A stretch of 64,000 bases of DNA, from NCBI GenBank assembly GCA_024102795.1, contig JAGFJK010000430.1, positions 1 to 64,000 on the forward strand. Reading direction: 5' to 3'. The notes under the pieces were generated by a model that saw nothing but the letters and a program-made list of their open reading frames with translations, had not been told where the DNA came from and searched no databases. How positions within the stretch are numbered: the first letter of the stretch is position 1; each line of letters starts with the position of its first letter. This DNA comes from Pirellulaceae bacterium (GTDB lineage: Bacteria; Planctomycetota; Planctomycetia; Pirellulales; Pirellulaceae). The position numbers and the translations under genes were made by a program. Below, in pieces: positions 1 through 48,947 of the stretch.

Positions 1-224
1 GGGTTGCGGCCGGCCTGATCGGACCACTGCCCGCGGCCCCGCCGGCGGCTCCGCTGGCCGCGCCGCGACCAAGAGACATCGGGCAGGGTGTGAGCCGACC
101 AGTGAACGTGGCGTTCGACCAGCGGTCCAGCGATCCGCTTGCCGACGCCCGCGACCTGTTGGAATTGGCAATTGACGAGATTGCCACCGACGTCGGACTG
201 CGCTGGCAGTCAAGCCAACGGTAA
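1..224 (+). CDS. C-terminal end of a large LEPR-XLL/dockerin-type surface protein (5' end outside window)
   Basis: An open frame enters from the left edge (codons in phase with position 3) and stops at TAA 222-224, giving about 73 residues. The first part is Ala/Pro-rich low complexity. The last part is an acidic amphipathic stretch, DLLELAIDEIATDVGLRW, followed by QSSQR. The ending IATDVGLRW matches in pattern the ends of two complete surface proteins in this window (LADDVTRAW and LAADVAGAW), so I read it as the tail of another secreted protein of the same class. The body, any dockerin and the start lie outside the window. What I see is the frame and the motif; membership of the surface-protein class is inferred. 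It is on the same strand as the giant gene that follows 400 bp downstream. Confidence 0.6.
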   Translation, partial: VAAGLIGPLPAAPPAAPLAAPRPRDIGQGVSRPVNVAFDQRSSDPLADARDLLELAIDEIATDVGLRWQSSQR

Positions 225-627: not shown

Positions 628-3600
628 ATGGCACACCACGAAATGAACACCGGCAACTGGCTTCTTGGCTTCGTGCGTTCTCCCCAGCGCCGCAAGGATC
701 GCGAGGCCCGGCGGCAACGGCAGCAGCGCCGGCGGATGTTCCAGGGTTTCGAATCGCTCGAGGAACGCCGGTTGCTGGCCACATTGTCCTTCGACACCAA
801 CAGTAACACCCTGATCTATCGCGATACGCTGGGCGAAGTGAACAACGTCCAGTACACGTTCAATGACTTGGGCAGCACGAAGGAATTCACGTTTACGGAC
901 ACGGCGCTGATCATCAACAGTACGGGCTGCGGTGCGCCGGCCGGGACAACGATCATTTGCAGTACGCTGCCGCAGACGGCCGCGGTGCGGTTCGAACTGG
1001 GCACCAACAACGACACGCTGATCCTGAACGCCTCGCGGATCGCCGGCGGCAACGCGGGGGCCGAAGACATCGCCATCGCGCCGGCCGGAGCGGGACAGCG
1101 CGTGACGGGCTTTGATCCCGGAGTGCCCGTCGACATCACGGGCACCGAAATCATCCGCTTCGTGGGCAACGGCAACGACGACAGCCTGACCGTGAATCCG
1201 GGTTCGGGCAACGACACGGTCCGCATCCAGAATGCCAATCCCAACACGGACGTCGTGCAGTCCAGCAGCCTGCCGAACATCGAGTTCACCGGGATGGCGG
1301 CGTTCGAGTTGAATGCCAACGCGGGCGCCGGCAATGGCAGCGACACGATCACGATCGAGACTCGCGACCTGGAGGGAGCCACCGCCTCGAACTACACCGT
1401 CGCCACGGACGCCAGCGACACGCTGATCATCGAGGGCCAGGGGTCGAACGACGCCTACAACCTGGACGATCCGGACGGCTTGGGACCTCAGGCGGCTCGC
1501 ATCATCGACTTCAACGGCAACAACGTGCAGGTGACGGTCGTATCGGACGACGTGGGGCTGGTGCGGTTCGACACGCTGGGTGGGGCCGACAGCCTGGACG
1601 TGGACGTCACGAACACGAACCTGCTGGTGGAGTACAACGGCGGGGCGGGCACCACCGACTCGCTGTTCGTGTTTGGCTCCGGGGTCACCAACCAGTCGTA
1701 CACCGTGGGCCCGGCCGTCGATGAGGGAACGCTGGAGTTTGACGGCCTTACGTTCATCACCTTCACGGGCCTCGAGCCGATTCTGGACCTGGTGACGGCG
1801 ACGAACCTGACGGTTAACGCCACCGGAGCGGGCAACGCCATCTCTTACACGAACCTGGGCGCCGACGGCGTGGTGGCGGTGGACGCGTTCGAGACGCTGC
1901 AGTTCAACAACAAGAAGCACCTGACGTTGAACGGGCTGGGTGGCGTGGACACCTTCTCGATCGGCACGGCCGCGGGACTCGATCCCGACGGATCGATTAC
2001 CGTCAACAGTGGCGATGCCGCCGACTCGGTGTTGATCAACGCCACGACGGCTCAGGATCCGATCCACGTCGACAACCTCGACCTGTTCTCCGCCCGCATC
2101 CTGGGCGCTCAGCCCGTGCCGATCCAGGTCGTGGCAACCGAAACGCTGACGATCGATGGCCAGACGGACAACGACGCCCTGACCGTGCACGGCACGAATA
2201 CCGACGACACAGCCACGGTCACGCCTGGACTACCGGTCGACTCCGGCGTGATCCAGGTCAACTCGCTGCTGGCGGTGAACTACCGCGGGATCGGCACGGG
2301 CGGCACGCTGACCTTCGCCGGCAATGAAGGTTCGAACGACCGCCTGGTCTACAACGGCACCGCGCTGCTCGACTCGTTCAATATCTCGGCCACCACCGGC
2401 TCGGTCGATCTGGTCAATGCGTTCGGAGTCTATCCGCAACTGCAGCAGATCGGTGTCGAGCGGCTGGACATCGCGGCGGGCGGCGACAGCGACCAGTTCA
2501 CGGTCAACGCCAACCAGCCCTACACCCGCATTCAGTTGGACGGCGGCGTCGGCGCTGACAGCGTGACCCTGAACGGCAACAGCCTGAACAACGCGGTGGT
2601 CGACTTCAGCGGTTCGCCGGCCACGGTGGCCGGAGCCGGTCTGGGAGTGGTCGCGCTGCCCGGAGTGGAAATCGCCACCGTCAACAACACGAATTCGGGC
2701 GTGATCATCAACGGTGGCAGCACGATCAACGTGCTTCCCACGTCGACGAACGCGGCCCGCGTTGTCGTAGACGGAGGCATCCCCGAAGTCCGCCTCACGG
2801 CCACGTCGCTGGCCATCGACGGGCTGGGTGGCAACGACACGCTGACGGTTTCCGGCACGCCGGGCAACGATATCGCGCTGGTCACGCCCGGCGCCTCGAC
2901 CGATGCCGGATCGATCGCCGTCAACGATCTCCTGCCCGTGGACTTTCGGAACCTGGGGGCCGGCGGCGCGCTGGTGTTCGCGGCCGGCGCCGGAACGGAC
3001 GAACTGGTTTACCACGCCACCGCCGGCGACGACGCTTTCCTGGTTGCTTCCACTGGCGACGTAACGCTGGTCAGTCCGCTGGGGATGCACCTGATCGTGC
3101 GCGAAACGGACGTCGAGGATCTGAGCCTGAACGGTCTGGACGGCGACGATGCCTTCACGGTCAACCCCGGCCACGGCTATCGCAGTGTGAATCTGTCGGG
3201 CGGCACTCCCGACGCGGGTTCCGACAGCGCGACTCTGAATGGCGACGGCACTCCCGTGACTGCCACCCTGGGCATCTCGCCCGCGACGGTCGCTGGCGGC
3301 GGCCTGGGTGTCGTGTCGCTGACCGGCGTCGAAACGGCCGCGGTCAACAACGTGGCGGGCCCGGTCAACGTCAACGGCGGCCCATCGGCCGACCGCTTCG
3401 ACGTCACTCCGCTGGACTTCGATTCGGCCCGCGTCCAGGCCAACGGCGCGTCGCCCGTCGTCACCGCCAACACGTTCGGTCCCCTGGCGATCAGCGCCGC
3501 CGGCAGCACGAACAATACGCTGGCCGTTCACTTGAGCACCGCCAGCGAGACGGTCACGGTGGACGACAACGAAGTGACCGTGACCGCCGGCGCCGTGTTG

Positions 3601-6600
3601 AAGCAAATCCTGTACAGCAACACAAACGTCGCCGCGTTGGCCGTGTACGGTAACGAAGGCAACGATACCTTCAACTTCACGCCCAGCGTTAACTCGCCCG
3701 AGATCCTGATCGACGGCGGCGACCCGATCGGCGTGGTGGGCGACACGCTGAACCTGTTGGCTATCGGGCCGGTCACCTTCGCTCCCGGTCCGGAAAGCGA
3801 TGAAGGCGGATTCCAGACTCCCGGTGTGGCCGAGGTCAGCTTCGACCACATTGAGCGGGTGAACATCGACCTGACCAATGCGGGCGGCATCGTGACCGTG
3901 TGCGGCACGGGCGACGACGACCAGATCACCGCGGCGGGCGTGGCGCCGAACACCGTCAACGTGCAAGTCAACGACGGGCCGCTGATGCAGTACGCGGGCG
4001 TCAACACGCTGAACCTGCAAGGCAAGAACGGCGACGACGATATCGATATCGACCTGATCGCCAATCTGGGCGTGAACTTCAACGTGGACGGCGGCCTGCC
4101 TACCGTGGATGGCGACACGCTGACGATCACGGGCACGGACGCCGCGGACACGGCCTCCTGGGTCCCCTCGGGTCCCGACGGCGGCACGATGATTGCCGTG
4201 GCGACCTTGATCAGCGTGACCACTACCGAAACCGTGGTCTACGACGGCCGCGACGGCGGCGACTCGTTGGGCATCGTCGGCACGCCGCAGGACGACAACT
4301 ACGCCTATAGCCCGGCTGGCGTCGGCACCGGCAGCATGACCAGCGACGGGGCTCCCGCGTTCAGCTTCCTGGGAGTGGACGACTTGACGGTCAGCGGCGG
4401 AGCGGGCGGCTTTGACCGGCTGGCGATCACCACTACCGAGGCGGCCGACATCGTGACCTCCGACGCGGACACGGTGATGCTGGCGGGCGGCGGCAACGCC
4501 ACGCTGGTCGGGGGCATAGATCGGGTGGAACTCCACACCCTGGGCGGCGGCGACCTGGTCGACCTGGACCTGCAGCTTGCTGGCGTGGAGAAGTTCATCG
4601 ACGCGGGCGATGGCAACGACCTGGTCGACCTGTCCGGTTCCATCGACGCCACGATACTGGGCGGCTCCGGCGACGACATTTTGATTGGCAGCCCGCTGGC
4701 CGACCTGATCATCGGCGGCGACGGCGACGACAATTTGCAGGGCGGCGCGGGAAGTGATCGGCTCGAGGGTGGCAGCGGCAGGGATTTCATCCAAGGAGGT
4801 ACCGGAACGGATGAAATCTTTGGCGGTGATGACGCTGACGAAATCACCTGGAACAACGGCGACGGTGACGATACGGTCGAGGGTGGGCAGGGGAACGACC
4901 TGCTGATCGTGAATGGGGACGTCGCCCTCGGCGAAAATTTTGTCCTCCGCCCGCTGTTCAACCCGCCACCCACCGGACCACGCGTGGTCCTGGAACGCAC
5001 CAACCTCACGCCCTTCCAACTGAACACGGACGACATCGAGGCGTTCGAGATCCAGGCGGGTGGCGGAGCCGACACGCTGATCGTGCAGGACCTGTTCGAA
5101 ACGGACGCGCGAACGGTCTTCTACGTGGCGGGCGTCGGGGCCGATGCCGACTCGCTGGTTGTCCATGCACGCAACACGGACGACGCGCTGCACCTAAACA
5201 ACACGGCGGGCATACTGACCGTCGAGGGCCTGACCTATGACGTGGCGATGGGCAACGGCAACGCAGCCAACGGCGACATGGTCACGATCAACGGCAACGA
5301 TGGGAACGACACCATCGAGGCCGGGCCGGGCACGGAACTCCTGGCGCTCCTCACGTTCAACGGCGGCGCCGGGAACGATACGCTGCTGGGCTCGGCCGGC
5401 AACGACGCGCTCAACGGCGGAGACGGCGAAGACACCATCAGCGGCAACGGTGGCATCGATTCGGTGCATGGCGGAGCCGGTGGCGACACCATCTGGATTC
5501 CCGGCACCAGCGGCAACGACGGCGTGGGTCTGATCATGACCGGAGCGGGCGGGCTGGTGACCAACGTCAACGGCGTCGTGACGACCTACATCGCGCCGGG
5601 AGCCGGGCCGATCGCCAACGCCTCGATCGCCGAAATCCGGTTCAACGGCCTGGCGGGCGACGACCTGATGACCGTGGACGGGTCGGTGGGTCTGGTCCCC
5701 ATCCCGATCACCTATCATGGCGAAGTGGGCAACGACCGCCTGACCGTGCTCAACAGCCAGGCCGTCACCGCCACGTACAACGTGGGGCCCGACGTCGGCG
5801 CGGGCCAGTTGATCCACTCGGCGGGCAACATCACGCAGACGATCAACTTCACCGGCCTGGAACCCGTTGTGGACCTCGCGCCCGGCACGCTGACGGTCAA
5901 CGCCACGGACGCCGACAATGCGGTGAACTACAGCCAGAGCGAACTGAATGCGACGATCGGTCGCGTGGCGGTGGACGGCTTCGAGTCGATTCACTTCAGC
6001 AACAAGACCACGCTCACGATCAATGCCGGCGCCGGCAGCGACGCGATCAACCTGAATAACCCCTCCATTCCCACGGGCCTGACCGGGATCACGGTCAACG
6101 GCGGCGATCCCACGGCCGGTAGCGACACGGTGGTCGTCAATGGCACCACCGGCATGGACACGATCAACGTGGGTTCGCTGACCAGCCAGGGCGCCGTCGT
6201 CACCGGCGCGCAACCGGTCCCCGTGACCATCGCCACCAGCGAGCGGCTGGTGATCAACGGGCAGGGTGGCAGTGACGATCTGACGGTGACCTCACCCGCG
6301 GGTGGATCGGAGATCAGTTTCAGGCCCGGAGCCACGGCCGACGCGGGTAGCGTCACGCACTTGGGCTTCAGCGCAAATTCCACGCTGCTGCCGCTGGATT
6401 ATCACGGTCTGGGCGAACTCGGCAGCCTGACCTTTGACGTGGCCGGCGGTGGCCGATCCAGCGGTTTGGATGTCCACGGCACCAGTGCCGACGACTTTTT
6501 CGGCGTCTCAGACACCCCCGACGGCTCGGTTCAAGTCATCAAGCCAGGATTCGGCGTTCCGGTCACGGTTCCCATTAGCACAACCGGAGTGGTCTACCTG

Positions 6601-9600
6601 AGGCTGCTCGGCCTGGATGGCGACGACACGTTCAGCGTTCCGGGCAACCATCCCATTCCGTTCGGCATCGAGGTCCAGGGCGGCAATCCGGGCAGCGGCA
6701 GCGACACGCTCGAATTCATCAGTATCGGCTCCACGACGGTCGACCTGGCGAACTCCGAAATTACGGACGCCGCCGGCGTCGGTTCACCAACCGCCAGCTA
6801 TTCCGGCATCGAGACGGTGGACTTGTTTACGGTCGGCGACGTCGCCGTCAACCTGACCGTGCTGGGCAGCGACGACGACGACCGCGTGGAGGTGACTCCG
6901 CTGGGACCCAACAGCGGCACGCTCCGCGCCAACGGAGCCAACCCGGTGGTCAATTTCTTCAATGCGGCCACCTTCACCGTCGACACGCTGGACGGTTCCG
7001 ATACGCTGGCGGTCACCGCCACGGCCGGGGCCGACGCGATTTCAGTCAACAACTCCACTGCGGTTCCCACTGTTACCGTTGTGGGGCGCGAAGCGGTCAA
7101 TCATGCCAACGTCGAAGCCGTTGAAGTCTACGCGCTGCAAGGCGCTGACACGATCACCGTCACACCCGGCGCGGCCAACGACATTCCCGTGTTCATCGAC
7201 GGCGGCGATCCGATCGGCGTGGCGCCCGGCGACACCCTGATCGTGACCGCCAACACGTCGCTGGTCCACACGGCCGGCCCGGAAAACGACGAAGGCGGCA
7301 TCGTGGCCGACGGGTTCGAGCCGGTCAGCTTCGACCACATCGAATCGATCGTGGTCTCGGATCCTGGTGGCAACGACCTGGATGTTACCGTCTGCGGCAC
7401 GGGCGACGACGACCAGATCACCGCTCAAGGACAGGCTCCCAACGAAGTCGCCGTGCAAGTGAACGATGGCCCGATCATCACCTACAGCGGTGTGGCCACG
7501 CTGACCTTGGAAGGCAAGAACGGCGATGACGAATTCGATATCGATATCAACGTGCCCAACCTGGGTGTGGTGTTCACGGTTGACGGCGGCCTGCCCAACG
7601 CCAGCGATACGTTGACCGTCACTGGAATCGACGACGACGCTGCGGACACCGTGACCTGGGTTCCCTCCACGGCCGATAGCGGCCAACTGAACGTCGTGGG
7701 CAACCCGATCAATGTTGTCGAAACCGAACACGTGATCTACGACGGCGAGTCGGACGGCGATACCGTGCAGGTAATCGGCTCCGGCACGTTCACGCACACG
7801 CCCAGCGCGGCGTTTGACTTCGGCGCGATGCAACTGCGCAGCGGCAACCAGACCATGCTGGGCATCGCCTACGAGAACCTGGGCGCGGGTGCGGTTACCG
7901 CCTTTGGCCTGGGACTGAGCGATACGCTGGTGGCCGAGGGGACGGCGGGCGAGGATTCCATCAACGTCGCGGCGACCACCGGCACCGTGGTGCTGACGAC
8001 CAGCGTCGGCGCTCACGTGCCGCTGCAGCAAGTGCTGATCGAGTTCCTGGAAGTCAACACGCTGGACGGCGATGACCAGATCACGGTGAACGTCCCGCAG
8101 CCCTATCAGTCGGTCATCGTCAACGGTGGCAGTCCCGGGAACAGCGACGTGCTGACGATTCAGGACGAACTGGGCGCCGACGACGAGTTCGAGGTGAATC
8201 CGGGCTTCCATCCGGGCACCGGCACGGTCGACATCAACACGGGCGCCACGCTGGTGCCGTTCACCGGCATCGAACACGTGCTGCTGCTGGCTTCGAATAA
8301 CCAGGACACGCTGACGATCAACGACGACCTGGCGGACAACCACTGGACCGTCAGCGCGGGCCCGGTGTTCGGCGATCGCGTGCAGATCGACAATCGCGAG
8401 TCGTACGATTATGACGGCTTCGATTCGGTGGAGCTGGTGAACAATTTCGGCACCGATACGTTCCAGGTGCATCCGACCGACTTGGACGGTTCGCTCAGCC
8501 TGTTGATTACGGGCGCCGGCAGCGACGCCTTGGTAGCGGTCGGCACGCCCAGTGGGGATCTGTTGAGTGTTGCTCCGGGACTGGGGACCGAAGGCACGGC
8601 CGTGGTCAACGGCGTTCCGGTGGACTTCAATTCGATCGCGTCGGTCGTGCTGCAAGGCGGCAATGGCAACGATCTGTTCGAAGTGACGCCGTCGATCAAC
8701 TACCAGGTGTTCGTGGATGGCGGCAATCCGGTCGGCACGACGGGCGACACGCTGCTGCTGACGGCCAACAGCTTGTCGATTTTCACGCCCGGTCCGGAAG
8801 CCGACTCGGGCGGCTTCGAGATTGACGGTCTGCTGCCGGTCACCTACGACCAGGTCGAAAGCATCGCGGTTAGCGATCCGGTTGGCGACAACCTGGTGGC
8901 GGTCGTCATGGGCACGCAGGGCGACGACGACATCACGGCCGTCGGGCTGGCTCCGAACGGCATGAACGTGACTGTCAACGACGGCGCGGTGGTCACGTAC
9001 CTGGGACTGGCGGACCTGACGCTGCAAGGCAAGAATGGCGACGACGACATCGACATCGACGTCAACGTGCCCAATCTGGGCGTGCGGATCACCGTCGACG
9101 GCGGCCTGCCCAACGCCAGCGACACGTTGACCGTCGCCGGTGTTACCAATGACGCGGCCGACACCGTGACCTGGGTTCCCGGCACGGCCAACAGCGGCGT
9201 GCTGACCGTGGCCGGCCAGACCATCCACGTCGTGGAAACCGAACATCTGATTTACGACGGCGAGTCGGCCGGCGACACGGTGCAAGTGATCGGCTCCGGC
9301 ACGTTCACGCACACGCCCGGCGCGGCTTTCGACTTCGGCCGGATGGAGCTGCGCAGCGGCAACGAGACCATGCTGGGTATCGCCTACGAGAATCTGGGCG
9401 CCGGTGCGGTCACCGCCTTCGGCCTGGGACTGAACGATACGCTGGTGGCCGAGGGGACGGCGAGCGAGGATTCCATCGACGTCGCGGCGACCACCGGCAC
9501 CGTGGTGCTGACGACCAGCGTCGGCGCTCACGTGCCCCTGCAACAGATCCTGGTCGAAAACCTGGTCATCGACGCCCTGGACGGCGACGACCAGATCACG

Positions 9601-12600
9601 CTGAACGTCCCGCAGCCCTATCAGTCGATCACGGTCAACGGCGGCAGTCCTGGGAACAGCGACGTGCTGACGGTCAACGACCAACTGGGCGCGAACGACG
9701 GCTTTGAGGTGACGCCCGGCTTCAGTCCCGGCACCGGCACCGTCAACATCAACACGGGCGCCACGCTGGTGCCGTTCACCGGCATCGAGCATGTGCTGCT
9801 GCTGGCGTCCAGCGACCAGGACATGCTGACGATCAACGACGACCTGGCCGACAACCACTGGACCGTGGCCGCCGGACCGGTGTTCGGCGATCGCGTGCAG
9901 ATCGACAACCGCGAATCGTACGACTACTCCGGCTTCGATTCCGTGGAGCTGGTGAATAATTTCGGCACCGACACGTTCGAGGTGCATCCGACCACCCTGG
10001 TCGGATCGCTCAACCTGTTGGTCACGGGCGGCGGCAGCGACGCTTTGGTAGCGGTCGGCACGCCCAGCGGGGATCTGTTGAGTGTTGCTCCGGGACTGGG
10101 GACCGAAGGCACGGCCGTGGTTAACGGCGTTCCGGTGGACTTCAATTCGATCGCGTCGGTCGTGCTGCAAGGCGGCAACGGCAACGACCTGTTCGACGTG
10201 ACGCCGTCGCTCAACTACCAGGTGTTCGTGGACGGCGGCAATCCGGTTGGCACCACGGGCGACACGCTGTTGCTGACGGCCGACAACTTGTCGATCTTCA
10301 CTCCAGGACCGGAAAGCGACTCGGGCGGCTTCGAGATCGACGGCCTGTTGCCGGTTACTTACGACCATATCGAAAGCATCGCGGTCAGCGATCCAGGCGG
10401 CAACAATCTGGTGGCGGTCGTCATGGGCACACAGGGCGACGACGACATCACGGCCGTCGGCCTGGCTCCGAACGCCATGAACGTGACCGTCAACGACGGC
10501 GCGGTGGTCACGTACCTTGGTCTGGCGGACCTGACGCTGCAAGGCAAGAACGGCGACGACGACATCGACATCGACGTCAACGTGCAGGGGCTGGGCGTGC
10601 GGATCACGGCCGATGGCGGGCTGCCGAGCACCGATCCCGATGTGGTGACGGTCACGGGCGTGGCGGGCCCCTTGGATCTGGCGGTCTGGACGCCCGCGAG
10701 CGAGGACGACGGTTTGCTGACGCTGGCTGGTATCGCGATCAACATCGTGGATGTGGAACGGCTGATTCTCGACGGCCAGAACGACTCGGAAGTTCTGACC
10801 GTCGCGGGTGGACCTGGCGGCGACCGCTTCGCCCACACTCCAGGAGCGGCCGTGGACGCGGGCAGCGTCTCGATCGAAAACGCCACTTCGACGCTGCTGG
10901 GGATCGATTACGTCACGCTCGGTCCGGGTGGCCTGGTGGTGATCGACGGCAACGGCGGCAGCGACACCCTGGCGGTTCGCGGCACGAGCGGATCCGACAC
11001 CATGAACGTCGGTTTCACGGCTCGCGACCAGGCGGTGATCGACGTGCGAACGTCGCAAGGCAACCATGTCGATCTGGTCAGCGACCAGGTCGAGAATTAC
11101 GAGCTGCATACGTTCGAGGGCGACGACAACGTCAACCTGCAAGCCACGATCGACATGAGCGGCACGTTCACGGTGAACGCCGGTGGTCCTGGCGGCGGCA
11201 GCGATACGTTGAATCTGGTCGGCGCCGCGGGAATCGTCGAAAGCGTGCAGATTCGCCCCGCCGCTTCCGCCAGCGACGACCAGGAGATCCTGGGCCTGTC
11301 GTCGCCCAATCCGATTATTGCTACCGGCCTGGAGTTGATCACGTTCGAAGGCGTCAACGACCTGGACACGTTGACTGTCAATCCCGGCAGTGGTGACAAC
11401 GCGGTCCGAGTGGAACGGGGTTCGGGCGCCGACCTGGTCACCTCGGACAGCCTGCCGGCGATCGAATTCCGCAATGTGAACACATTTGTCGTCAACGCCG
11501 ACGCCACGGCCGGGCAGAGCGGAGCGGACGTCGTGACGTTCGTGACCCGCGGCCTGATTGGAGCGGTTCCGGCCAACTACCAGCTTGTGGCGGACGAGTC
11601 CGACACGCTGGTGATCGAGGGCGTGGACGGCGCGGGCGACGATTACACGTTGACCAATCCGATCGGCCTGCCGTCGGTCCGCGTCCGCGACAACGCGGCG
11701 GCGCCCGACGTCCTGGTGACCGAGACCTCGGGCAACCTCGGCCGGTTGCAGGTCAATACCCTGGGCGGGGACGACCGCGTGCTGGTCGATGTCAACGTCG
11801 GCAGCGGCTCGGACTTGATCGCCGTGCCGATCACCTACGACGGCGGAGGCAACTCGGACCTGCTGACCATCAGCGGCACTCCGGCCGTGCAGGTGCTGAC
11901 GGTCGATTACCGTCCCGGCCCGGCAGTCACCGAAGGGCGTTTGACGTACAACACCAGCGCCATGATCATCGACTTCAACAACCTGGAGCCGGTGATCGAC
12001 CTGGTACCCGCCGTGAACTTCATCGTCAACGGCACCAACGCGCCGAACGCGATCACGTATGACGACGCGGGCGCTAACGGGCTGGTGACGGTCGATGCCT
12101 ACGAATCGATTCAGTTCAGCAACAAGACGATTCTCACGCTGAACGGGCACGACGGCGATGATTCCATCACGCTCAACGGCGGCGTCCTGCCGGCCGGGCT
12201 GGCCCAGATCGTGGTCAACGGCGGCAACTCCACCCACGGCGATACGCTGCGCGTGGTGGACAACAACGCGGGGCCGGATGTCGTGGTCAGTTCGCTGTCG
12301 TCGGACGGGGCGTCGATCACGGGCGCGCAGTTCGCGCCGGTCATTGCGGACACGGTCGAACGGATCTCGATTGACGGTGCCAGTTCGGGCGACCTGCTGA
12401 CCGTCAATACTCCGGCGGGCAGCCACACGATCACGTACACGCCTGGCCCAACTCCCGATTCAGGCGACATCCGCGTCGACAATTTCGTGCCGCTGCACTT
12501 CGAGACGCTGGATGCCGGCGCCGTCAACTTTACCAACACGGGCGGCGGTCGCTCGGACGTTCTGGTCCACCGCGGTTCGGACGTGGACGACCAGTTCCTC

Positions 12601-15600
12601 GTCGACGCGGGATTCGGTGGCGGCCGAGTGGTCTTCGAGAATAGCTCCGGCGTGCACGTGCCCGTACTTACGCCCGGCGTGCTGGCCCTCACGCTGGAAG
12701 GTCTCGACGGCGACGACCTGTTCACGGTCCGGGGCGATCACACGTACGAACAGATCGACGTTCGCGGCGGCAACCCGGACGACGGCGACACGCTGGCCGT
12801 GCTGGCCCCGAACGCGCCGCGCACCGTGGACCTCGGTCTGGCGACGGTGTTCGGCTACGGCGGACCCATTGTCTACACCGGCATCCAGACGATCGACGCC
12901 AACGCCGGCGGCGCGGCGCTGAACCTGCTCGGCACGGCGGGCGACGACACGATCACTGTCACGCCGCTCAACGCGACCAGCGGTGTCGCTCAGGCCAACG
13001 GCGCGGATCCGATCGTCCGCTACTCCAACACCGGCGGTGTTCTTGGGGCCACGCTGCGGGTCAATTCGCTCGGCGGCCAGGATACGCTGGTTGTCAACGC
13101 CAGTTCGCTGGCCGATCTGGTCGAGGTCGATGGGCCGAACCAGTTCGTCGATACGGGGGCCAACGGCGGCATCGTGGAATTCATCAATGCCAACCAGGAA
13201 GCCTTGACCGTCAACGGTCTGCAAGGCAGCGACACGTTCGACGTCACGCCCGCCCTGACGCTCAGCATTTTCATCGACGGCGGCGACCCGATTGGCCTGG
13301 TGGGCGACACGCTGATCCTGCAGGCCGACAACACGTCGGTCTACCACGCCGGCCCGGAGAACGACGAGGGCGGCTTCGAAATCGATGGCACGCCGATCAC
13401 CAGCTACGACCACATCGAGTCGATCGTGGTGAACGATCCGGGTACTGGCGGCAACGCCAATGATTTGGTGGCGACGGTCTGCGGCACGCACGGCGATGAC
13501 GACATCACCGCGCAAGGCATCGCCACCAACGTCGTCGATGTGACGGTCAACGACGGCCCCACGGTTCGCTACGACGGGGTGGCCGAATTGATCCTGGAAG
13601 GAAAGAACGGCGACGACGACATCGACATCGACATCCAGGTGGAAACGCTGAACGTCGAGTTCACGGCCGACGGCGGCCTGCCCAGCGTGGTGGGCGATAC
13701 CGTCACCGTGACCGGTGTGAACAACGATGCCCCCGATAACGTCACCTGGACACCCGATCCCACGTCCACCGAGAACGGAACGCTGGTTGTGGACGGCGAA
13801 ACGATCAACGTGGTCAACACCGAGAGTCTGCTGTACGACGGCGAGGCGGACGGCGACAATCTGTCAGTGATCGGCGGCGGCCGGTTCGTTCACACGCCGG
13901 GCAGCACCGCGGATGCCGGCCGCATGGCGCTCGGTTCGCTGCTGGCCATCGACTACGTGAACCTGGGAGCGGCGGGGACCGTGACCGCCGACGGCACCAG
14001 CGGCGGCGACACGCTGGTCGCTTTGGGCAGCAACGGCAGCGACACGCTGGACATCACGCTGACCAACGACGACGACATTGATATCGACCTGACCGGCGCC
14101 GCCGGAACTCACGTGGATCTGCGTTCGAACAACGTCGAAAGCTACGAGATCCGTTCGCTGGCCGGTGACGACCGGATCAACCTGAGCGCCACGTTCAACG
14201 TGTCGGGTACCTTCCGCGTATTCGCCGGCGATCCGGGCGCGGGCAGCGATTCGTTCTACTTCTCCGACCCCGGCACCGCCGCCGTCGGCATTACGCCGGA
14301 TGGAGGCGCGAGCGACAACCAACTGGTCAGCGGCGTCTTCACGGGCGCGATTTCGCTGAGCGGCGTCGAACTGATCCACTACGACGGCAACGCGAGTGAC
14401 ACGCTGACCGTCAATCCAGGCGCCGGCGACAACTCGGTCACGGTCCGCCGTGGCACCCACCTCGGAACCGATCAGGTCAATTCGGACAGTCTGCCGACGA
14501 TCGAGTTCGAGGGGGTCAACACGTTCCTGGTCGACGCCAGCGCGCAAGGCAGCGATACCGTGACGTTTGTGACCTGGTTCCTGACCGGAGCCGTGAATGC
14601 GAACTACCAGATGTCCGGTTCGGCCGTCGATACGCTGGTCATCCAGGGTTCGGACGGCGCGGGTGCCGGCAACGACTCGTTTCGAATCACCAATCCGGCT
14701 GGCGCCGCGCCCGTGGCCGTTCGCGACAACAATGGCACTCAAGTGACGGTAACCGCGATCAACGCCAGCCAGGGGCGTTTGCAGATCAATACCCTGGGCG
14801 GCGACGACACCGTGACGATCGACGTGGGTGGCACAAACGTGATCCCGACGCCGATCACCTTCGACGGTGGTTCCAACTCCGACCTGCTGATCCTGCAGGG
14901 CAATCCGCTCAGCCCGACCGCCGCGGTTTACTCGCCCGGGGCCGCGGTGACCGAAGGCCGCCTGCAATACTTCGAAGCTTCGGTCCCGCCCGTCACGATG
15001 ACCGTCGATTTCGCCAATCTGGAGCCGGTGATCGACACGATCAACGGCACGCTGACCGTCAACGGGACGGACGCCTCCAATCAGATCGACTACCGCCGGG
15101 GCACCAGCAACCGCGGTTTGGTGTCGGTGGATGGGTTCGAGCTGATCGAATTCGCCAACAAGACCAGCTTGACGTTGTCGGGCGGCGCCGGCGACGACAA
15201 GTTCAATCTGAACAATCAGGGGACCGCGCCCGCGGGGTTGACTTCAATCACGGTCCAGGGTGGCAACTCGACCACGGGCGACGAATTGGTCGTCAACGGC
15301 ACGACGCTGGCCGACAATATCGGCTTTGAACCGACCGCGTTCGATTCGGCCCGCGTCACCGGCGTGCAGAGCGTGGCGTTCGTGGACGCCTTCACCATCG
15401 AGAACGTGGTGCTGAACGGACTGGGAGACGCCAATGCCACGAACGGCGACGTGCTGACCGTGTTCACGCCGGATGGCACGCCGGCCAACCCGGTCCACAG
15501 CAGCGTGGAAGTCACGCCCGGCACGACGTTCGATTCTGGTCGGGTGCAGGTCGATACGCTGGTGCCGATGCGGTTCCTGAACCTTTCGACGATCGGGTCG

Positions 15601-18600
15601 CTGAACGTTTCCGACCCGGACGCGTTCGACCACGACCGCGTGATTTATAACGGCGGCGAGACCAGCGACACGTTCGTCGTGCCCGATCCGCGCATCGGTG
15701 GCGGCACGCCGTCGATCGCCAAGGTCCGCTTCGTCGGCTCGGTGCCGTTCCTGCAGATTCCGGTGACTTCCTCGGCCATCGAGAACTACACGCTCCGCGG
15801 TGCCAGCGGCAACGACACCTTCGACATCCGTCCCCTGGCCGGTGTGAACATCCGCGTGGAGGGCGACGATCCGGCTGCCGGCAGCGACACACTGAACTTC
15901 GACGCCGCCGCGGCCAGCGTGAATCTGGACCTGGAAACCGGCACGCTGGCTCAGGCCGGATTCGGCGACGTGGTCTACACCGGCATCGAGGACCTGAATA
16001 TCGACGCCAACGGCCAGAACCTGAACACCCTGGCCACCGGCGTGGACGACGTGGTGGAAGTCACGCCGCTGGGTACGAACTCCGGCCTGCTGCAGTCGTA
16101 CGACGCCCAGGGCAACGATACGTCGCCCGTGGTGAACTTCCGCGAAACGGGGACCTTCAACCTGGATACGGCCGGCGGCCAGAACCGGATCATCGTCAAC
16201 GGCACCACGGCCAGCGAAACCATCGCTGCGGATGGTGACAGCGTGACGGTCGGAACGCGCGAGACGGTCAACTACACCTCCACCGGCGGTGGTAACGCTC
16301 TGACTGTGAACGGCCACGAGGGCAGCGACACGTTCAACGTCACGCCCTCGCCCAGCGTGCCGATCTTTATCGACGGCGGCGACCCGATCGGGATCACCGG
16401 CGATCGCTTGAATGTGCAAGCGGAGAACAGCGTCCTGTACCACGCCGGACCGGAGAACGACGAGGGCGGAATTGAAGCGGACGGCAACCAGATCGTGAGC
16501 TTCGACCACATCGAGGCGGTCTCGATCACGGATCCGGCCGGCCCCGGTGATCCCGACCTGGAAGTGACCATCTGTGCCACCCACGCCGACGATGACATCA
16601 CCGCCTGGGGCGTGGCGACCAACGTCGTGAACGTCACGATCAACGACGGACCGATCATCACGCTCAACGGCGTGACCGACCTGATCCTGGAAGGCAAGAA
16701 CGGCGACGACGACATCGACATCGATGTGCAGGTGCCGAACCTGGGCGTCGAGATCACGGCCGACGGCGGCCTGCCCAGCACGACCGGCGACGAAGTCACC
16801 GTCACTGGCGTGGCCAATCCGCTCAACCCCGACGCGGCCACCTGGGAACCACTCGACGTCGATGCCGGCACCTTGACCGTGACCTACCTGGGCAACCCCG
16901 TCACGATCAACATCGTCAATACCGAGACGCTGACCTACGACGGCGAGAGCCACGATGAAACGTTGACGGTGATCGGCGATGGTTCGATCCCGATGTTCAA
17001 CAACGAGCAGGAACGGTTCATTCACACGCCGGGCCGGGCTCCCGACGCGGGCCGGGTCGACATCATCACGGTCGATACGAACCCGATCAGCAGCAACGAC
17101 ACGCTGCTGGGCATCAACTACGTCAATCTGGGGCTCGACGGCTCGGTCACCATCGACGGCAACAGCTCGGCCGTGCCGCAAGGCGACACGCTGGTCCTGC
17201 ACGGCACCGACGGCGACGATCGGATGAGTGTCGACTTCACGGCCGACAACGCCGCCACGTTCGCGCTGTTCCACGCCTTCGGGCCTCACGTCCGCGTGTT
17301 CAGCCAGGAGGTCGAGAATTACGAAGTCCGCATGCTGGCCGGTGACGACATTGTCGAGCTGCAGGCCGAAATCGCCGCCGACGGCACGTTCACCGTCCAT
17401 GGCGGCGGCCCGGGCAACAGCGACGTGCTGCGGATCACGGGCGATCCCAACACGGCCGAGTCGGTCCGCATCAGCCCCGATCCGCTGGTCAGCATCGACC
17501 AGTGGATCTCCGGCCTCTCGCCCAACCCGATGCTGATCGTCGGGATCGAGCGGATCAGCTACCAGGGCGTCAACGATCAGGACACGCTGACCGTCGATCC
17601 GGGCCCCGGCGACAACCAGGTCTTCGTCGAGCGCGGTAATAACGCCGACCTGGTCACTTCCGACAGTCTGCCGCCGATCGAATTCGATAACCTGAGCACG
17701 TTCGTGGTCGATGCGGCCACGGGCGGCGCCGACCGGGTAACCTTCGCCACCTGGAACTTGCGCGGCGCGATCAACAGCAATTACCAGATGACCGGCAGCG
17801 GCATCGACACCTTGATCATCGAAGGCGTGGACGGCGGTCGCGATGGCAACGACAGGTTGACCGTGACCAATCCGGCCGGCACGCCGTCGGTCGCGGTGAC
17901 CGACAACAACGGCGCCAACGTCACCGTCACGGCCACCACGGCTAACCTCGGACGGCTGCAGATCAACACGCTCGGCGGCGACGACCAGGTGCTGGTCGAC
18001 GTCGGTTCGACCGACCTGGTGAACGTGCCGATCACGTTCGACGGGGGTGGTAACAGCGACTTGCTGACGATCAGCGGCACGCCAGCCACGACCGTTACCA
18101 ACGTCGTTTACTCGCCGGGTGCCAGCGTGACCGAGGGCCGGCTGACGTACGACAGCGCGATGACCATCGATTTCCTCAACCTGGAACCGATCATCGACCT
18201 GGTGCCGGCCGCCAATCTGACGGTCAACGGCACGAATGCCGCCAATCAGATCGATTATCGCCAGGGTTCGGTGGCCGCACGGGGCGAAGTGTCCGTGGAC
18301 GGCTTCGAGGTGATTGAGTTCTCGTTGAAGGATCAGTTGACGATCAACGGCAACGCCGGTGACGACACGATCAACCTGGACAACGCGACCTATCCCACGG
18401 GCAATCTGCTCGCGGTATTGAATCGAGTTGTGGTCAACGGCGGCGGTTCGACCACCGGCGACAAGGTGATCGTCAATGGTTCCGCGGCCGCCGACAGCCT
18501 GACCTTCCTGCCGCTGGCGCCCGACGCCGCGGACGTGACCGGCGCCCAGGCGACCAACGGCGTGGACATCAACACCACGGAACTGGTCGTGATCAACGGC

Positions 18601-21600
18601 CTGGGATCGAACGACCGGCTGGACGTGCGGACGCCGGCCGGCGCGAACACCGTCACCTATTCACCCGCCGCGACTGTCGACGCGGGCAACGTGCGGGTCG
18701 ACAGCCTGGTGCCGTTGGATTTCGTGAACCTGGGCGCCACCGGCGTGCTGGGATTCGACGACGCCAGCGGCACACGAGTCGATACGCTGGTCCATCGCGC
18801 TTCCGACGTGAATGACCTGTTCCACGTGGCGGCGACAACCGGCTACGTCACGCTGACCAACTCGCCGGGCACCCACGTGCTGGTCGAAACCGACGGCGTG
18901 CGGAACCTGACGCTGAACGGCTTGGGCGGCGACGACATCTTCACCGTGGACGGCCTGCACCCGTACCTGCTGCTGGAAGTCCAAGGGCAGGAGCCCAGCG
19001 CCAGCGACGTGCTGAACGTCAACGGCACCGCGGCCGCCGAGACGATCCGCGTCAACCTGGAACCGGCGACGATCACTGGCCTGGGGACCGTGCCGGGCGA
19101 GTCGATCCGCTTCACGGGCATCGAGCACGTGAACATCGATGGCGGCGGGGGTACCGGCGGCAGCGACACGTTGACCGTGGTCGGCACCCAGGACGACGAC
19201 ATCCTGACCTACGAGCCGCTCGAGGCCGAGGATGGCAAGTTCCGCAACGAGGGCTCGAACACTGGTTTCGTGTTCCGCAACATCGGGGGCAACTTCACCG
19301 TGGATGGCGGGGCCGATGGAGCGGACAAGGTGATCCTGCTGGGCACGAACGACCATGACGTGATCGTGATCAACTCGCCGAGCCGCGTGGCCAGCGTCGA
19401 GGATACTTTCGGCGTGGTGCTGAAGCCGGTCAACCTGGCCACGACGGTCGAGGTGCTGAATGCCCAGGCCCGCGACGGAAACGACACCTTCCTGGTCGTG
19501 CCCGCGCCGCCGCTGTCCAGCAGCGTGGACGGCATTCCGCGCAACCTGCTGATCGACGTGGACGGCGGCGCGCCTTCGGCCAGCGACGCCCTGGTGATCG
19601 CCCGGATCGATGGCACTCCGCTGGCCAACACCGACTTCGTGGTGGTCAGCCACAGCCGCCGCTTTGACGAAGGCGTGATCCGCGTCTATCGCGATGCCAC
19701 GGGCGTGGTCGGCGATCAGGTGGTGAACGCCCTGATCACGCCTCCGGTGCGTTTCCCCGATATCGGTTACACCAATGTCGAGATCGTGGACGCCAAGGTC
19801 AGCAATCCGGCCACGAACCGGTTGATCCTGGGTCCGGACATTTATGAACAGAACGAGGCGTTGACCGACGCCACGTTCGTCGGCTCGGGCCAGACGCTGA
19901 ACCTGGAGAACCTGGCGATCTTCCCGCCGCGCGGCGAACATCGTTTCGTGGACGTGGATCAGGACTGGTACCGCTTCGTGGCCCAGTCCACTGGCACGCT
20001 GGACTTCCAGGTGTACTTCCACGAGTACAGCCCGGAACTGCTGCCACAAGGTGGCAACCTGCACATCGAGGTCTACGACGAGGACGGCGACCTGATCGCC
20101 GGCTACGGGCCGAACTTCGGTACGAACGACGAGAACCAGGGCCTGAACCCGCTGTTTGTCCGCGACGACAACGAACGGATCCGCATCCCGGCCGTCGCCG
20201 GCCAGACGTACTACCTGCGCGTGTTCGGACCGGACGATCCCACGGTGGATCCGATGCTGGCCTCGCGCGTGGTCAACGGCTACAGCCTGACGGTGATCAA
20301 CACGCCGCCCACGGTGCCGTACGACCTGGAGCTGGTCGATATCATCGGCCAGAGCACGGTGGCTGCCAGCCCCGCCAGTTCGACCACGACGGTCTATGCC
20401 GACCCGACGATGGCCCAGTCGCTGGTCCAGGAAGACGACTTCTACAACGGCAAGTACCTGTACTTCATCAGCGGCCAGCAGGCGGCTCGCCGGGCCCTGA
20501 TCACCGACTACGACTACAGCTTCAGCATGATGACGGGCGAGCGGTACCAGTTCACGCTGGACGGAGGCTGGTTGTCGGCGGCTCCGGCCATCGGCGATTC
20601 GTTCGTGATCGAGTCGCACGACACGGGCCGCAGCCAGTTGGACAACGTCACCCGCGACGACACGCCGGTGATCCGCTTCCGCTTGGACGATGCAATCTTC
20701 CTCAGCGATCTGCCGGGGAATTCGGATCCCAACAATCCGCCCGATGAAGTGATTCCGATTCCATTCAACGCGGATCAGACACAGACCACCTCGACGCCCG
20801 GTTACCGCGTGCCGGTGTTTATTGAGGGACCGCCGCAGAGCATCAGCGGTCCGCTGCCGCAGGTGCCGGTGGGTTATGCCCGCATGTTGGCGCAAGGCGT
20901 GTACGAGTTCGACTTTGGCCAGGATGCGATTGACCTGGCGGCCGACCCCACGGGCAACACGCTGGGCGCGTTCTCGCTGGAAGCCAACAACGGCAGCTAC
21001 TTCCTCAGCGCCAAGGTCGAGATCGACGATCCGGCCGACCCGACCGAGTTCGGTTTTGGCGACCGCAGCGTATCGCTCGAAATCATCGTCGACACGCAGC
21101 CGCCGCTGTTGTTTTTCGGCGACCCGCAGGTGGCCGACGACGGCCTGATGGCGGGCAGCGATTCCGGCGTGGCCGGCTACCCCAACACGTTCACCGACGA
21201 GGTGACCAACGTCACCAATCCCTGGTTCTGGGGCACGGCCGAGGCCAACGCGCTGGTGCAGTTGTGGTTCGATCAGAACGCCAACGGCGTGGTCGACGGG
21301 GCCGACGTGCGGATCGCCCAGACCGTGGCCATCCCGCTGGACGGCACCAACCAGTATCCCAGCGGCCAGTGGAGCGTGCAGTCGAGCATCGACCTGAACG
21401 ACCCGCAGTATTTCGCCGAGGGCGGAGTGCGCCGGATCCTGGCCACGGCCGAGGACGTGGCGGGCAACGTGACCAGCGTGGCCAGCCTGGACATCTTCAT
21501 CGATACCGAGGGCCCGATCGTCACCAGCGTGTTTGTGACCACCGCGCCGGGCTACGACCTGTTCGATCCCAAGCCGTCCACCGACGGCCCGACCCCGCCG

Positions 21601-44211: not shown

Positions 44212-47200
44212 TTAGCTCAGCCACGCCCCGGCCACGTCCGCCGCCAGCTCGTCCAGCACCTCGTCCAACGAGCTCCGGCCCGCCGGTTCGGTCCCCAGTT
44301 GCACGTCCGCCCTGAGCGGGGCGGCCGCCACGGCGCTGGTCCGAGCGTCGCGGTGCGGTCCGGGCAGCGTGCCGCTATCGGCCGAGCTGGTGGTGACCGT
44401 GCGACGCCGCGGCAGTTGCGATTCGACTTCGCCCGTCGGCGAGATCAACAGTTCCGGGCGAACCGCGGGAGCGGCCGTTCGCGGCGGCCCGGCCGACACG
44501 GAGGACTCGTCCACGGCCGGCACGACCAGGCCCGCGGCGGCGACTGGGGCATCCAGTTCACTGCCCACGTACCACGCGCCATACTCACCCTCGCCATTGC
44601 CGCCCGAGCCGCCGTTCAGGTAGTTGATCACACCCAGGGCGTCGACGGCGGAGATGAAGTTGTCGCGGTTGGTGTCCAGCGACCGCAACGCCTCCAGCGT
44701 CTGCTCGCCCTCGCCGCCGCTGGCGAACGTGGGCAGAGCCATGGGGCCGTTCGAGTTGAGGAAGTTGATCACGTTCAGCACGTCCGCCGGCGAAATCACG
44801 CCGTTGCGGTCCGTGTCATACTCGCCCTCCCCGCCTCCGCCTCCTCCGCCGATCACCAAGTCGTCAAAGCCGTAGCCGATCTGGGGAATCGTCAGCGGCG
44901 TGGTCGGCTGGAACAGCAGCGTATCGTGTTCGGGCAGGATATCGGCTGGGTCGCCGACAAATGTCGCCACACCCGACGCCTCGGTCCGCAGGCGGATGCT
45001 GGCCATCAGGAACGCGCCGGTGCCGAGTGGATTCTGCGAGCGGGCGAACGAGCCGAATTCGTCGATCAGGCCCGGGATCGCCGGGTTGCCGGACGCGCCG
45101 TTGCCGAAGTCGGCGCTGAACGTGACGGCGAATCCCAGCGGATTGGTTCCGGAAGGTACCACCGAGACCAGGTCGGAATCGTAAAGGACGTCCAGATAGG
45201 CGGCGAACACGCCTTCCTGCGAAATCGGTGCATTCGGTCGCACATCCTCGACGATCACGTTCAGCAGGAACTCCTGGCCAACGCCGATCGACGTCAGGTC
45301 GTTGCCTGCCAGGTCGGTGACCATCAGCCGGATGTCGACCCGGTCGTCCAGGCTCGCGCCCGGCTGGACCTGCATGGTCACCTGAGCCGTGTCGGTGCCG
45401 CCCAAGCCGTTGACGATGGTGTACGTGAACTGGTCGGTGCCCCCAAAGCCGGCGTCCGGCGTGTACAGAATCCGGTCGTCGCTGGGGTCCCCCGTTCCGC
45501 GCGTGTCAATCGTGGCGGTTCCGTTGGGCGGATCGGACACCACCAGCAGCCGGATCGGCGGGCTGGTACCGACAATGTCGTTGGCCAGCACCGGCAAGGG
45601 GTTATTGCGCGACCCTTCCTGCACCGTGTAGGAATCGTCCACGGCCACCGGATTGACGAACGTCGGCGTGATGTTGACCGAGACCGTGGTGGTGGACTGG
45701 TTGTTGGCCGCGTCCGCGATCGTGTACTGGAACGTCAGCACGGGCGGGCTGGAGAAATTGGTCGGGGACGAAAAGATCAAGGCGTCCTGCGCAGGCTGGC
45801 GAATCGACACGCTGGCCCCGTTGCCAGGCTGCGTGACCGAAACGATACGGGTGCCGCCGTTGGCGCTTTCGAAATCGTTGGCCAGCACGTCCAGCACCTC
45901 GCCGATCACCCCCTGCTGCAACACGTAGCTGTCCGGATTGGCCAGCGGGTTGAAGCCCCGCACGGGCTTCATGTACTCTTCGACCTCGCCCGCCTGGTAT
46001 CGACCCTGCGGACCCAGGTCGCGTTCGTAGCCGTAGCGGAAACGGAACCGCGTGTCGCCCGGGATAATCGAAGCGGGCGTGGAGAAAGTCACTTCGTGGA
46101 TGCCTTCGCCCAGCCGGACGTTGCGGATAATCTGTTCGCCGGGGTCGGTCATGTCGCCGTCGTGGTTGAAGTCGGCCCAGCCCTGCAGATAGCCGCGGGG
46201 ATTGTTGCCCGTCGACACCTCGACCAGCAGCGTCGTCGTGCGGCCGGCCAGGACCGACGACGCGAACAGGATGCCGTCGTTGTCCGCGGCGGCCGTCGCG
46301 GCGCCCATCCCATCGGGTCCTTCGCCGGCCACGGTCGCTCCGAGATGGAAATTCGGCACGATGCCATGCACGGGCGGGTTGGTCAAATCGGCGATGATCG
46401 TGCTGGGCGTGTCCCCGTAGTCCAGGTTGGACTGGAACCCGAAGTCCACCGCTTCCGCTCCACCGTCCGGCGGAATATCGATCGTCTGGAAATCGTCGTC
46501 CACCGGGAACGTGCGAGCCCAGCCGGGGTCCGATCCGAAAGCGACGCGGACCACATACTCGCCCGGTTGCTGCAGATCGATGTTGTAAGTTCCGTCCGGA
46601 CCGGTGACGAACTTCGGTTCGTACAGCGACATCCGGCCGTTGTCGTCCAGGTCCAGATAGACGTAGACGCCGGGCAGGCCGACTTCTGTCTCCGCATCAT
46701 AGCGTCCATTGCCGTCCAAGTCGTTCCAGACCACGCCGCTCAAGTCGCCCGCGCCGATGCGGTTGCCGAAATCCACGTTCGGCACGTCCTGGTCGCGGAC
46801 GACCACGATGACGGTCCGAGAGCCGTCCGAGGGGTTGGTCGGCTGGAAGCCCGGCAGCGGCAACTGGATGATCTCAAAGGTGCCGGGTCCCCGGAAGTTG
46901 TTGATCGTATAGCGCCCGTCAAAACCCGACGTGGCGAACGGCTCGGTCGGGTCCAGGGTGCCGTTCTGGTTGACGTCCATGAACACCGTGGCGTTGGGCA
47001 GGCCCAACTCGCCGGCGTCCCGGATGCCGTTACCGTTCTGGTCCTGGTAGACCATGCCGCTGATCTCGCCGCTGGGCAGCAAGCGGATCGAGTTGGCCAG
47101 GTTCAGCCGGCCGCCCGTGCCGATGAAATCCTGGTAACCGTCAATCGGGTCGACGCCCCGCAGGATGACGTCCTTCAGCTCGGTCACCGACAGCGTCGGA

Positions 47201-48504: not shown

Positions 48505-48947
48505 AGTGTTTCCCCTCTGGGGTCGAGCCAAATTGCGGGTACTGTCGAGCGACGGCGGGGACAGCCGAACCGTGCGGTGTCCCCGCACTTGAGTCTAGTA
48601 GCGGGCCAGATTTTACGCCACTATTTTGCAGCCTTGCCTTCCCGTGAAATCCGTCCCCTGGCGCCGGCACGGGCCGCGACGGGCTTCCGGGCATCCTAAG
48701 TTTGCTCGCGTTTCGGCACCTGTCAACTTGCCGCGGATGTCCGCGAGGGCGAAAACCGGGGCCGCTGGCCGTTTCTCCCGATCAAACGGATTGGCACCCC
48801 CTTCGCAGGGTGGTACCAGGTCGGCCAATGGCCAGATGGAACGGTCCGCCGGATCGTCGCAACTGTCCGCCGGCTGGGATATACTCAAGCCGCTCCCTGC
48901 GCCATTCAGCTCTTCCCTTCTCTCGGCGGCACCCAGGAGGTGGTGGT
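48505..48947. other. Divergent intergenic region between two surface-protein genes
   Basis: This 443-bp gap holds the two start regions (GTG 48504 on minus, GTG 48948 on plus) and must contain both promoters, possibly co-regulated. The left part carries overlapping inverted repeats (48555-48588). The right end has AGGAGG at 48935-48940. Frames crossing it show no family resemblance, and I see no clear -35/-10 pair. Confidence 0.45.
48555..48588 (-). promoter_or_regulatory. Overlapping, mutually exclusive hairpins in the subtilisin leader region
   Basis: A 9-bp perfect stem GCGGGGACA/TGTCCCCGC (48555-48563 with 48578-48586, 14-nt loop) shares bases with a second 6-bp stem GTGCGG/CCGCAC (48572-48577 with 48583-48588). 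Only one can form at a time. They lie 51-84 nt upstream of the subtilisin GTG start. A leader switch or a protein-binding dyad are both possible. Confidence 0.4.

Follow-up and report, generated by a model that had tools for sequence, protein, structure and literature searches.

How proteins of planctomycetes that run to thousands of residues and have no recognisable Sec signal are exported is a question touched by a short stretch at the ends of three proteins in the DNA examined here. The window, meaning the whole 64,000 bases analysed, comprises bases 1-64000 of contig C62 (64816 bases) from a genome of 8.56 Mb in 519 contigs. A sequence-only reading had noted the motif [LI]A-x-D-V-x3-W at three C-termini in this window, and direct reading finds all three as it wrote them. 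A different terminal motif of planctomycete surface proteins, LEPR-XLL (Planc_extracel, PF07595), is described as an N-terminal export signal (Studholme et al. 2004, as cited in PMC8567305).

The first of the three proteins is cut by the contig start and only its C-terminal end is present (3..223, + strand; profile match, E=0.001). It ends in IATDVGLRW followed by QSSQR, with the motif at 180-206 (+), and its terminal helix, here called helix A, reads LLELAIDEIATDVGLRW (156-206, +; read directly) with five residues before the stop. The second is a giant of 7598 aa (628..23424, +) with a LEPR-XLL-like N-terminal region (LEERRLLA, 724..780, +; a weak PF07595 match and direct reading), RTX-type calcium-binding repeats (PF00353, 4687..5439, +; three matches, at 4687-4791, 4768-4845, and 5353-5439), a dockerin pair (type I dockerin at 22858..23022, +), and a tail. 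Helix A of this giant, SGALLGLLADDVTRAW (23353..23400, +; pattern and profile), is followed by seven residues and the stop, the end being LADDVTRAW then LGEKDQD (motif at 23374-23400, +). The third, a 1458-aa subtilase on the other strand (44212..48588, -), has a LEPR-XLL-like region near its start (LESRCLLA, 48385..48438, -), SdrD_B, GEVED, and Big_9 domains, a dockerin (44614..44820, -), and a tail whose helix A, SLDEVLDELAADVAGAW (44221..44271, -; pattern, profile, and a predicted helix), leaves two residues before the stop, so that the protein ends in LAADVAGAW and LS (motif at 44221-44247, -). A fourth long ORF (48702..63998, +; LEPR at 49044-49076) is also a LEPR giant, and its C-terminus lies off the end of both window and contig. 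Elsewhere in the window, the C-terminal half of an ORF at 41755-43107 (+) resembles, by eye only, a tyrosine recombinase.

Across all six frames, the window contains [LIVM]A.DV...W three times, each 2-7 residues before a stop. Genome-wide, the DNA form of A.DV...W has 52 matches versus 45 for a reversed control, and the number of matches alone is therefore uninformative. The non-random feature is position. Among the 51 matches read (the one on C496 was left out), five long ORFs end no more than 7 residues after the motif, three on C62 and one each on C38 and C487, and all five encode LEPR or dockerin proteins. The C38 and C487 ORFs end at their stops with ENVLDELAADVYEAWING and EQTLDEIAEDVGLQWGIGSP, respectively, and another dockerin protein of the source genome, on C266, ends with VAADILRAWRSR. 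The remaining matches near stops are short frames and an ORF of about 180 aa outside the LEPR/dockerin class (L188), which ends 10 residues after the W. In the three window proteins the motif is not a product of chance.

A 17-column profile (A2) was built, without dockerins and without stops, from ten tails picked among the ends of 92 LEPR/dockerin ORFs of the source genome. Applied to the whole source genome at E<=0.01, it finds its own ten tails and nothing else, while in 199 genomes of the family it gives 12 matches in 12 genomes besides the source genome, all within 0-21 residues of the stop. A dockerin pair lies upstream of the tail in 11 of these outside matches, the twelfth (L219) being a short ORF. 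Tails from other genomes include ELDALLDELAEDVTNAWN, SLEDALDDIATDVGEVWR, and QWESLLDLLAEDVLAAWLDGE, each ending at the stop. Tryptophan is present in 17 of 29 aligned tails. The 9-residue motif is real, but the conserved part is longer and its tryptophan optional; what was noted is one form (helix A, LDELLDELAxDVxxxW) of a broader tail. A phylum-wide search with a 29-sequence profile at E<=0.003, a cut-off that also lost most family members, returned the source genome and one internal match in a doubtful frame.

This broader tail has an acidic amphipathic helix and often, after it, a terminal box resembling DDxFAxL. A dockerin alignment (A3) led to 80 loci from named genomes, and comparison of their ends found helix A in some and the terminal box in more, for example SLDSFFAEVFG, KDDLFAQWE, and AIDDLLSDWE. 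Expectation-maximisation on 92 non-redundant 45-residue ends converged on a motif close to [LV]D[DE][LFVI][FL]A[DE][LVW], with a log-likelihood of 340 versus 161-190 for eight shuffles. The general form of the box is [DE]-x-hydrophobic-[FL]-x-x-hydrophobic, and it often follows the helix or is fused with it; proteins on C186, C220, and C433 have helix A and then the box. The C220 protein is a conserved giant of about 5200 aa whose end is matched in 128 of 149 family genomes by a query that also hits paralogs. In a discovery set of conserved-giant ends, the box occurs within the last 45 residues in 26 of 30, compared with 0-2 in upstream windows. Since the box pattern had been chosen after viewing sequences of this kind, it was then frozen for a hold-out set of 20 unseen conserved-giant ends, of which 17 have the box versus 0-2 of 20 upstream, with a shuffle mean of 3.2 and a maximum of 9 in 1000. 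Helix A is found in 3 of the 20 hold-out ends versus 0.05.

Across the window and the fetched loci, the box is present in 55 of 96 LEPR/dockerin ORFs versus 14 of 182 other ORFs (p about 3e-19), the controls being a mechanical, uncurated choice and the box being degenerate enough that about 8% of them have it. Helix A occurs in 9 of the 96 and in none of the 182. Over the last 45 residues, net acidity is on average 5.8 in LEPR/dockerin ORFs and -1.6 in the others. In 7 of 10 groups of close orthologs, conservation is higher over the final 18 residues than over the preceding 70. These results establish the tail as real and terminal; control proteins have it rarely or not at all, and in most ortholog groups its conservation exceeds that of the linker. 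The profile, the shuffles, and the non-LEPR controls together bear out the earlier claim of a conserved terminal helix in differing exported proteins.

In physical terms the tail is an amphipathic helix, acidic and about 14 residues long, that comes at the end of a linker with predicted disorder. For helix A the helical moment averages 0.43, versus 0.22 for shuffles, and the net charge is near -4.6. The AlphaFold model of the subtilase end contains a high-confidence dockerin pair, then about 110 low-confidence residues, and finally, at residues 187-202 of 204, a helix with pLDDT of about 62-75. This spacing, together with tailed LEPR proteins that have no C-terminal dockerin match, sets the tail apart from the calcium-binding dockerin fold. 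No description of the tail was found in the open-access literature on LEPR-XLL, planctomycete dockerins, or planctomycete secretion.

The proteins that carry the tail are different from one another, as had been claimed, but they are not wholly without relation: most have in common a LEPR-XLL region at the N-terminus and a dockerin pair at the C-terminus. An arginine-rich start with LExRxLL is present in 11 of the 14 tailed ORFs whose starts were read, the three others being cut or unclear (G067, G007, G063). Both complete window proteins also have a LEPR start, although the 7598-aa giant scores weakly. A Sec-like hydrophobic stretch is absent from 11 of the 14 tailed ORFs read and from both complete window proteins; the maximum 15-residue hydropathy is about 0.5-1.8 in the LEPR-start tailed ORFs versus 2.15 in a Sec-type neighbour at 23654. 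Like LEPR-XLL, the tail is a brief, conserved motif at one end of planctomycete surface proteins, and most of the tailed proteins read begin with LEPR-XLL. LEPR-XLL, however, is N-terminal and arginine-rich, while the tail is C-terminal, acidic, and found on only part of the LEPR proteins.

By a strict pattern that misses clear cases such as C487, the tail is found in the source genome on 8 of 14 LEPR ORFs with C-terminal dockerins, on 3 of 16 LEPR ORFs ending in RTX-like repeats, and on 6 of 31 other LEPR ORFs. Because many LEPR proteins lack it, the tail is not a universal LEPR tag and does not mark the LEPR class as a whole. The planctomycete family in which some LEPR-XLL exported proteins bear the tail is the Pirellulaceae, judging from the relatives matched through the dockerin. 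On some LEPR proteins RTX ends seem to replace the tail. RTX repeats also occur within some tailed proteins, namely the 7598-aa window giant, C186, C487, and L221/L222, and the listed matches include none for the subtilase or for most other tailed proteins; L221 and L222 (genomes G014 and G077) have RTX nonapeptide repeats, a dockerin pair, and the tail in succession in one protein. A second shared type of LEPR C-terminus, with a ATDAALLALLAAW-like segment, RTX-like repeats, and a D-V-x-D ending, is seen on contigs C180, C263, C387, C381, C284, C256, C132, C358, and C70.

A possible link to an export machinery came from gene neighbourhoods. A locus described in 2015 combines a secondary SecA_DEAD protein with HlyD-type proteins bearing M50-like or GAF domains, its role being given as unknown and no substrates being named (Kamneva et al. 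2015, PMC4452313). SecA_DEAD counts per genome were set aside as a co-occurrence test, since almost all family genomes have two or more matches and copies this common cannot discriminate; the source genome has two. A region of G042 was fetched because a second SecA lies near the conserved giant, and the link to this gene, secA2, was noticed post hoc. In four genomes, G042, G128, G139, and G106 (loci L403, L405, L406, and L407), the gene order is HlyD/M50-like, HlyD, GAF/HlyD, secA2, BBP7 porin, and LEPR proteins. Three LEPR proteins are found in the cluster, and a giant follows in the first genus only (G042, G128, G139), G106 belonging to another genus. Every complete LEPR protein in these clusters ends in the box, with VDAAFASM, ADEVLAIWEDETAL, AVDAILSDLDASLELL, and VDEVFADLEIEDLHLTM among the examples. 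By pattern, the box is present in 10 of 10 LEPR proteins versus 4 of 24 others, three of these four being giant ends or an ortholog of a LEPR protein, and the machinery and porin are without the tail. Two of the LEPR proteins (824 aa and 681 aa in L403) carry the tail and have no C-terminal dockerin match, which makes the tail separable from the dockerin.

In two genera, then, tailed LEPR proteins have the same gene set as the 2015 locus beside them, and the link between that locus and tailed proteins is a proposal from gene order. A tailed dockerin gene lies directly upstream of secA2 in L283, a locus found through its dockerin. When secA2 loci were fetched regardless of neighbours, LEPR genes were present in one of three (G106); the G032 locus (L409) has a BBP7 porin near secA2 and no LEPR genes, and the third (L408), a short contig, has none. 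Most LEPR genes are not near secA2. We therefore take the gene linkage of tailed proteins to the secA2 locus as suggestive, not as proof. Of the secA2 operon, the source genome has the HlyD part on C475 (63% identity), and C294 holds a copy that is more distant. The BBP7 porin gene adjoins secA2 in five fetched genomes, even where LEPR genes are not nearby (L409, 8569-12516), and the porin may be the outer-membrane part of the system.

On the basis of these sequence patterns, we tentatively favour a reading in which the tail would be an uncleaved C-terminal export or targeting element, most likely for the secondary-SecA/HlyD route. Export or surface assembly would be the stage at which it is read, along with the N-terminal LEPR-XLL region, and the best candidate reader is the secondary-SecA / HlyD-M50-like / HlyD / HlyD-GAF locus, to which BBP7 porins may add an outer-membrane component. 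The tail might act like a type I signal, with a helix and a bulky or aromatic residue at the chain end being presented to an exporter based on a membrane fusion protein. A more far-reaching version, possible but doubtful, is that the tail and LEPR-XLL mark the substrates of a separate Planctomycetes export system, made up of a shortened second SecA ATPase, HlyD-M50-like and HlyD-GAF fusions, and the BBP7 porin, and serving giant surface proteins. No substrate of the secondary-SecA/HlyD locus has become known since 2015, and the tailed proteins are candidates; the short tail, and the gene clusters that join tailed proteins to this locus, make both this question and that of giant-protein export testable.

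Of the sorting, anchoring, or export tag suggested by the sequence-only reading, an export or assembly recognition element appears to fit best. A membrane-anchored sorting tag of the PEP-CTERM, GlyGly-CTERM, or LPXTG kind would suit a C-terminal position in exported proteins, and PEP-CTERM and GlyGly-CTERM are likewise short C-terminal homology regions found on many exported proteins that differ elsewhere. Anchoring in the membrane, as with PEP-CTERM, is nonetheless unlikely because the tail is acidic and soluble, and no membrane helix or sortase-like motif was found in it. Unlike PEP-CTERM and GlyGly-CTERM, it lacks a transmembrane helix, a basic cluster, and a matching model: the tails have no hydrophobic segment (the maximum 15-residue hydropathy averages 0.51), their last 45 residues average 11.4 acidic versus 2.2 basic residues, and a search of six tails against Pfam and NCBIfam gave nothing relevant at E up to 10, which leaves a sorting tag of this kind barely conceivable. 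The dockerin-pair and GEGE-linker module common to most profile-positive proteins raises another explanation, in which the tail is without a function of its own, having come along when the dockerin module was copied and having persisted through recent common descent. The sequence that links dockerin to tail varies while the tail stays in place, and the conservation of the tail over the linker in most ortholog groups and its occurrence without a C-terminal dockerin also make this quite improbable. A third possibility is that the tail is an extracellular interaction peptide, a tethered short helix that binds a cohesin, a porin, or another surface protein after export and so aids surface-layer assembly. 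A long linker of low model confidence joins the tail to the dockerin pair, which is itself a module for interaction; a helix that is acidic and amphipathic is suited to binding, and orthologs keep the tail while linkers change. The dockerin/cohesin 'planctosome' proposed for freshwater planctomycetes (PMC6461901) similarly involves dockerin proteins with peptidase modules, but it concerns the dockerin itself, while the tail lies after the dockerin and occurs without it. The two L403 proteins without a C-terminal dockerin match, and the very different proteins that carry the tail, fit a general handling step better than a single partner, and we consider an interaction peptide rather unlikely.

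The tail could also be a classical type I secretion signal for an ABC exporter of the HlyB/PrtD type, in which case dockerins would take the part that RTX repeats play elsewhere in calcium-triggered folding. The HlyA signal has the same architecture, a helix and then an aromatic residue (PMC8870123), although for the tail the amphipathic helix with an aromatic near the C-terminus applies to the helix A variant only; both stand at the extreme C-terminus, the HlyA signal being uncleaved and the tail presumably so. RTX repeats accompany the tail in the window giant and in L221/L222, and LEPR-start proteins with RTX ends occur both in the source genome and in Vibrio (PMC10868602). RTX repeats are not, however, a constant companion of the tail, the LEPR proteins that end in RTX repeats have a different end, and the tail, unlike a type I signal, has a recognisable acidic consensus. 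The source genome does have an ABC and HlyD pair, on C446, but its ABC, the nearest type I exporter, is not associated with the tailed conserved giant: a phylogenetic profile of this ABC over 149 genomes gave 80 with both, 48 with the giant only, 15 with the ABC only, and 6 with neither (p=0.47), and it was rejected as the cognate exporter. A type I signal of the classical sort is for these reasons unlikely. The exporter on C405 was likewise rejected as a reader of the tail, as it belongs to a lanthipeptide cluster, in which a LanM lanthipeptide synthetase, a peptidase-C39 ABC exporter, and a HlyD-type protein are encoded consecutively (L320, 2092-8666).
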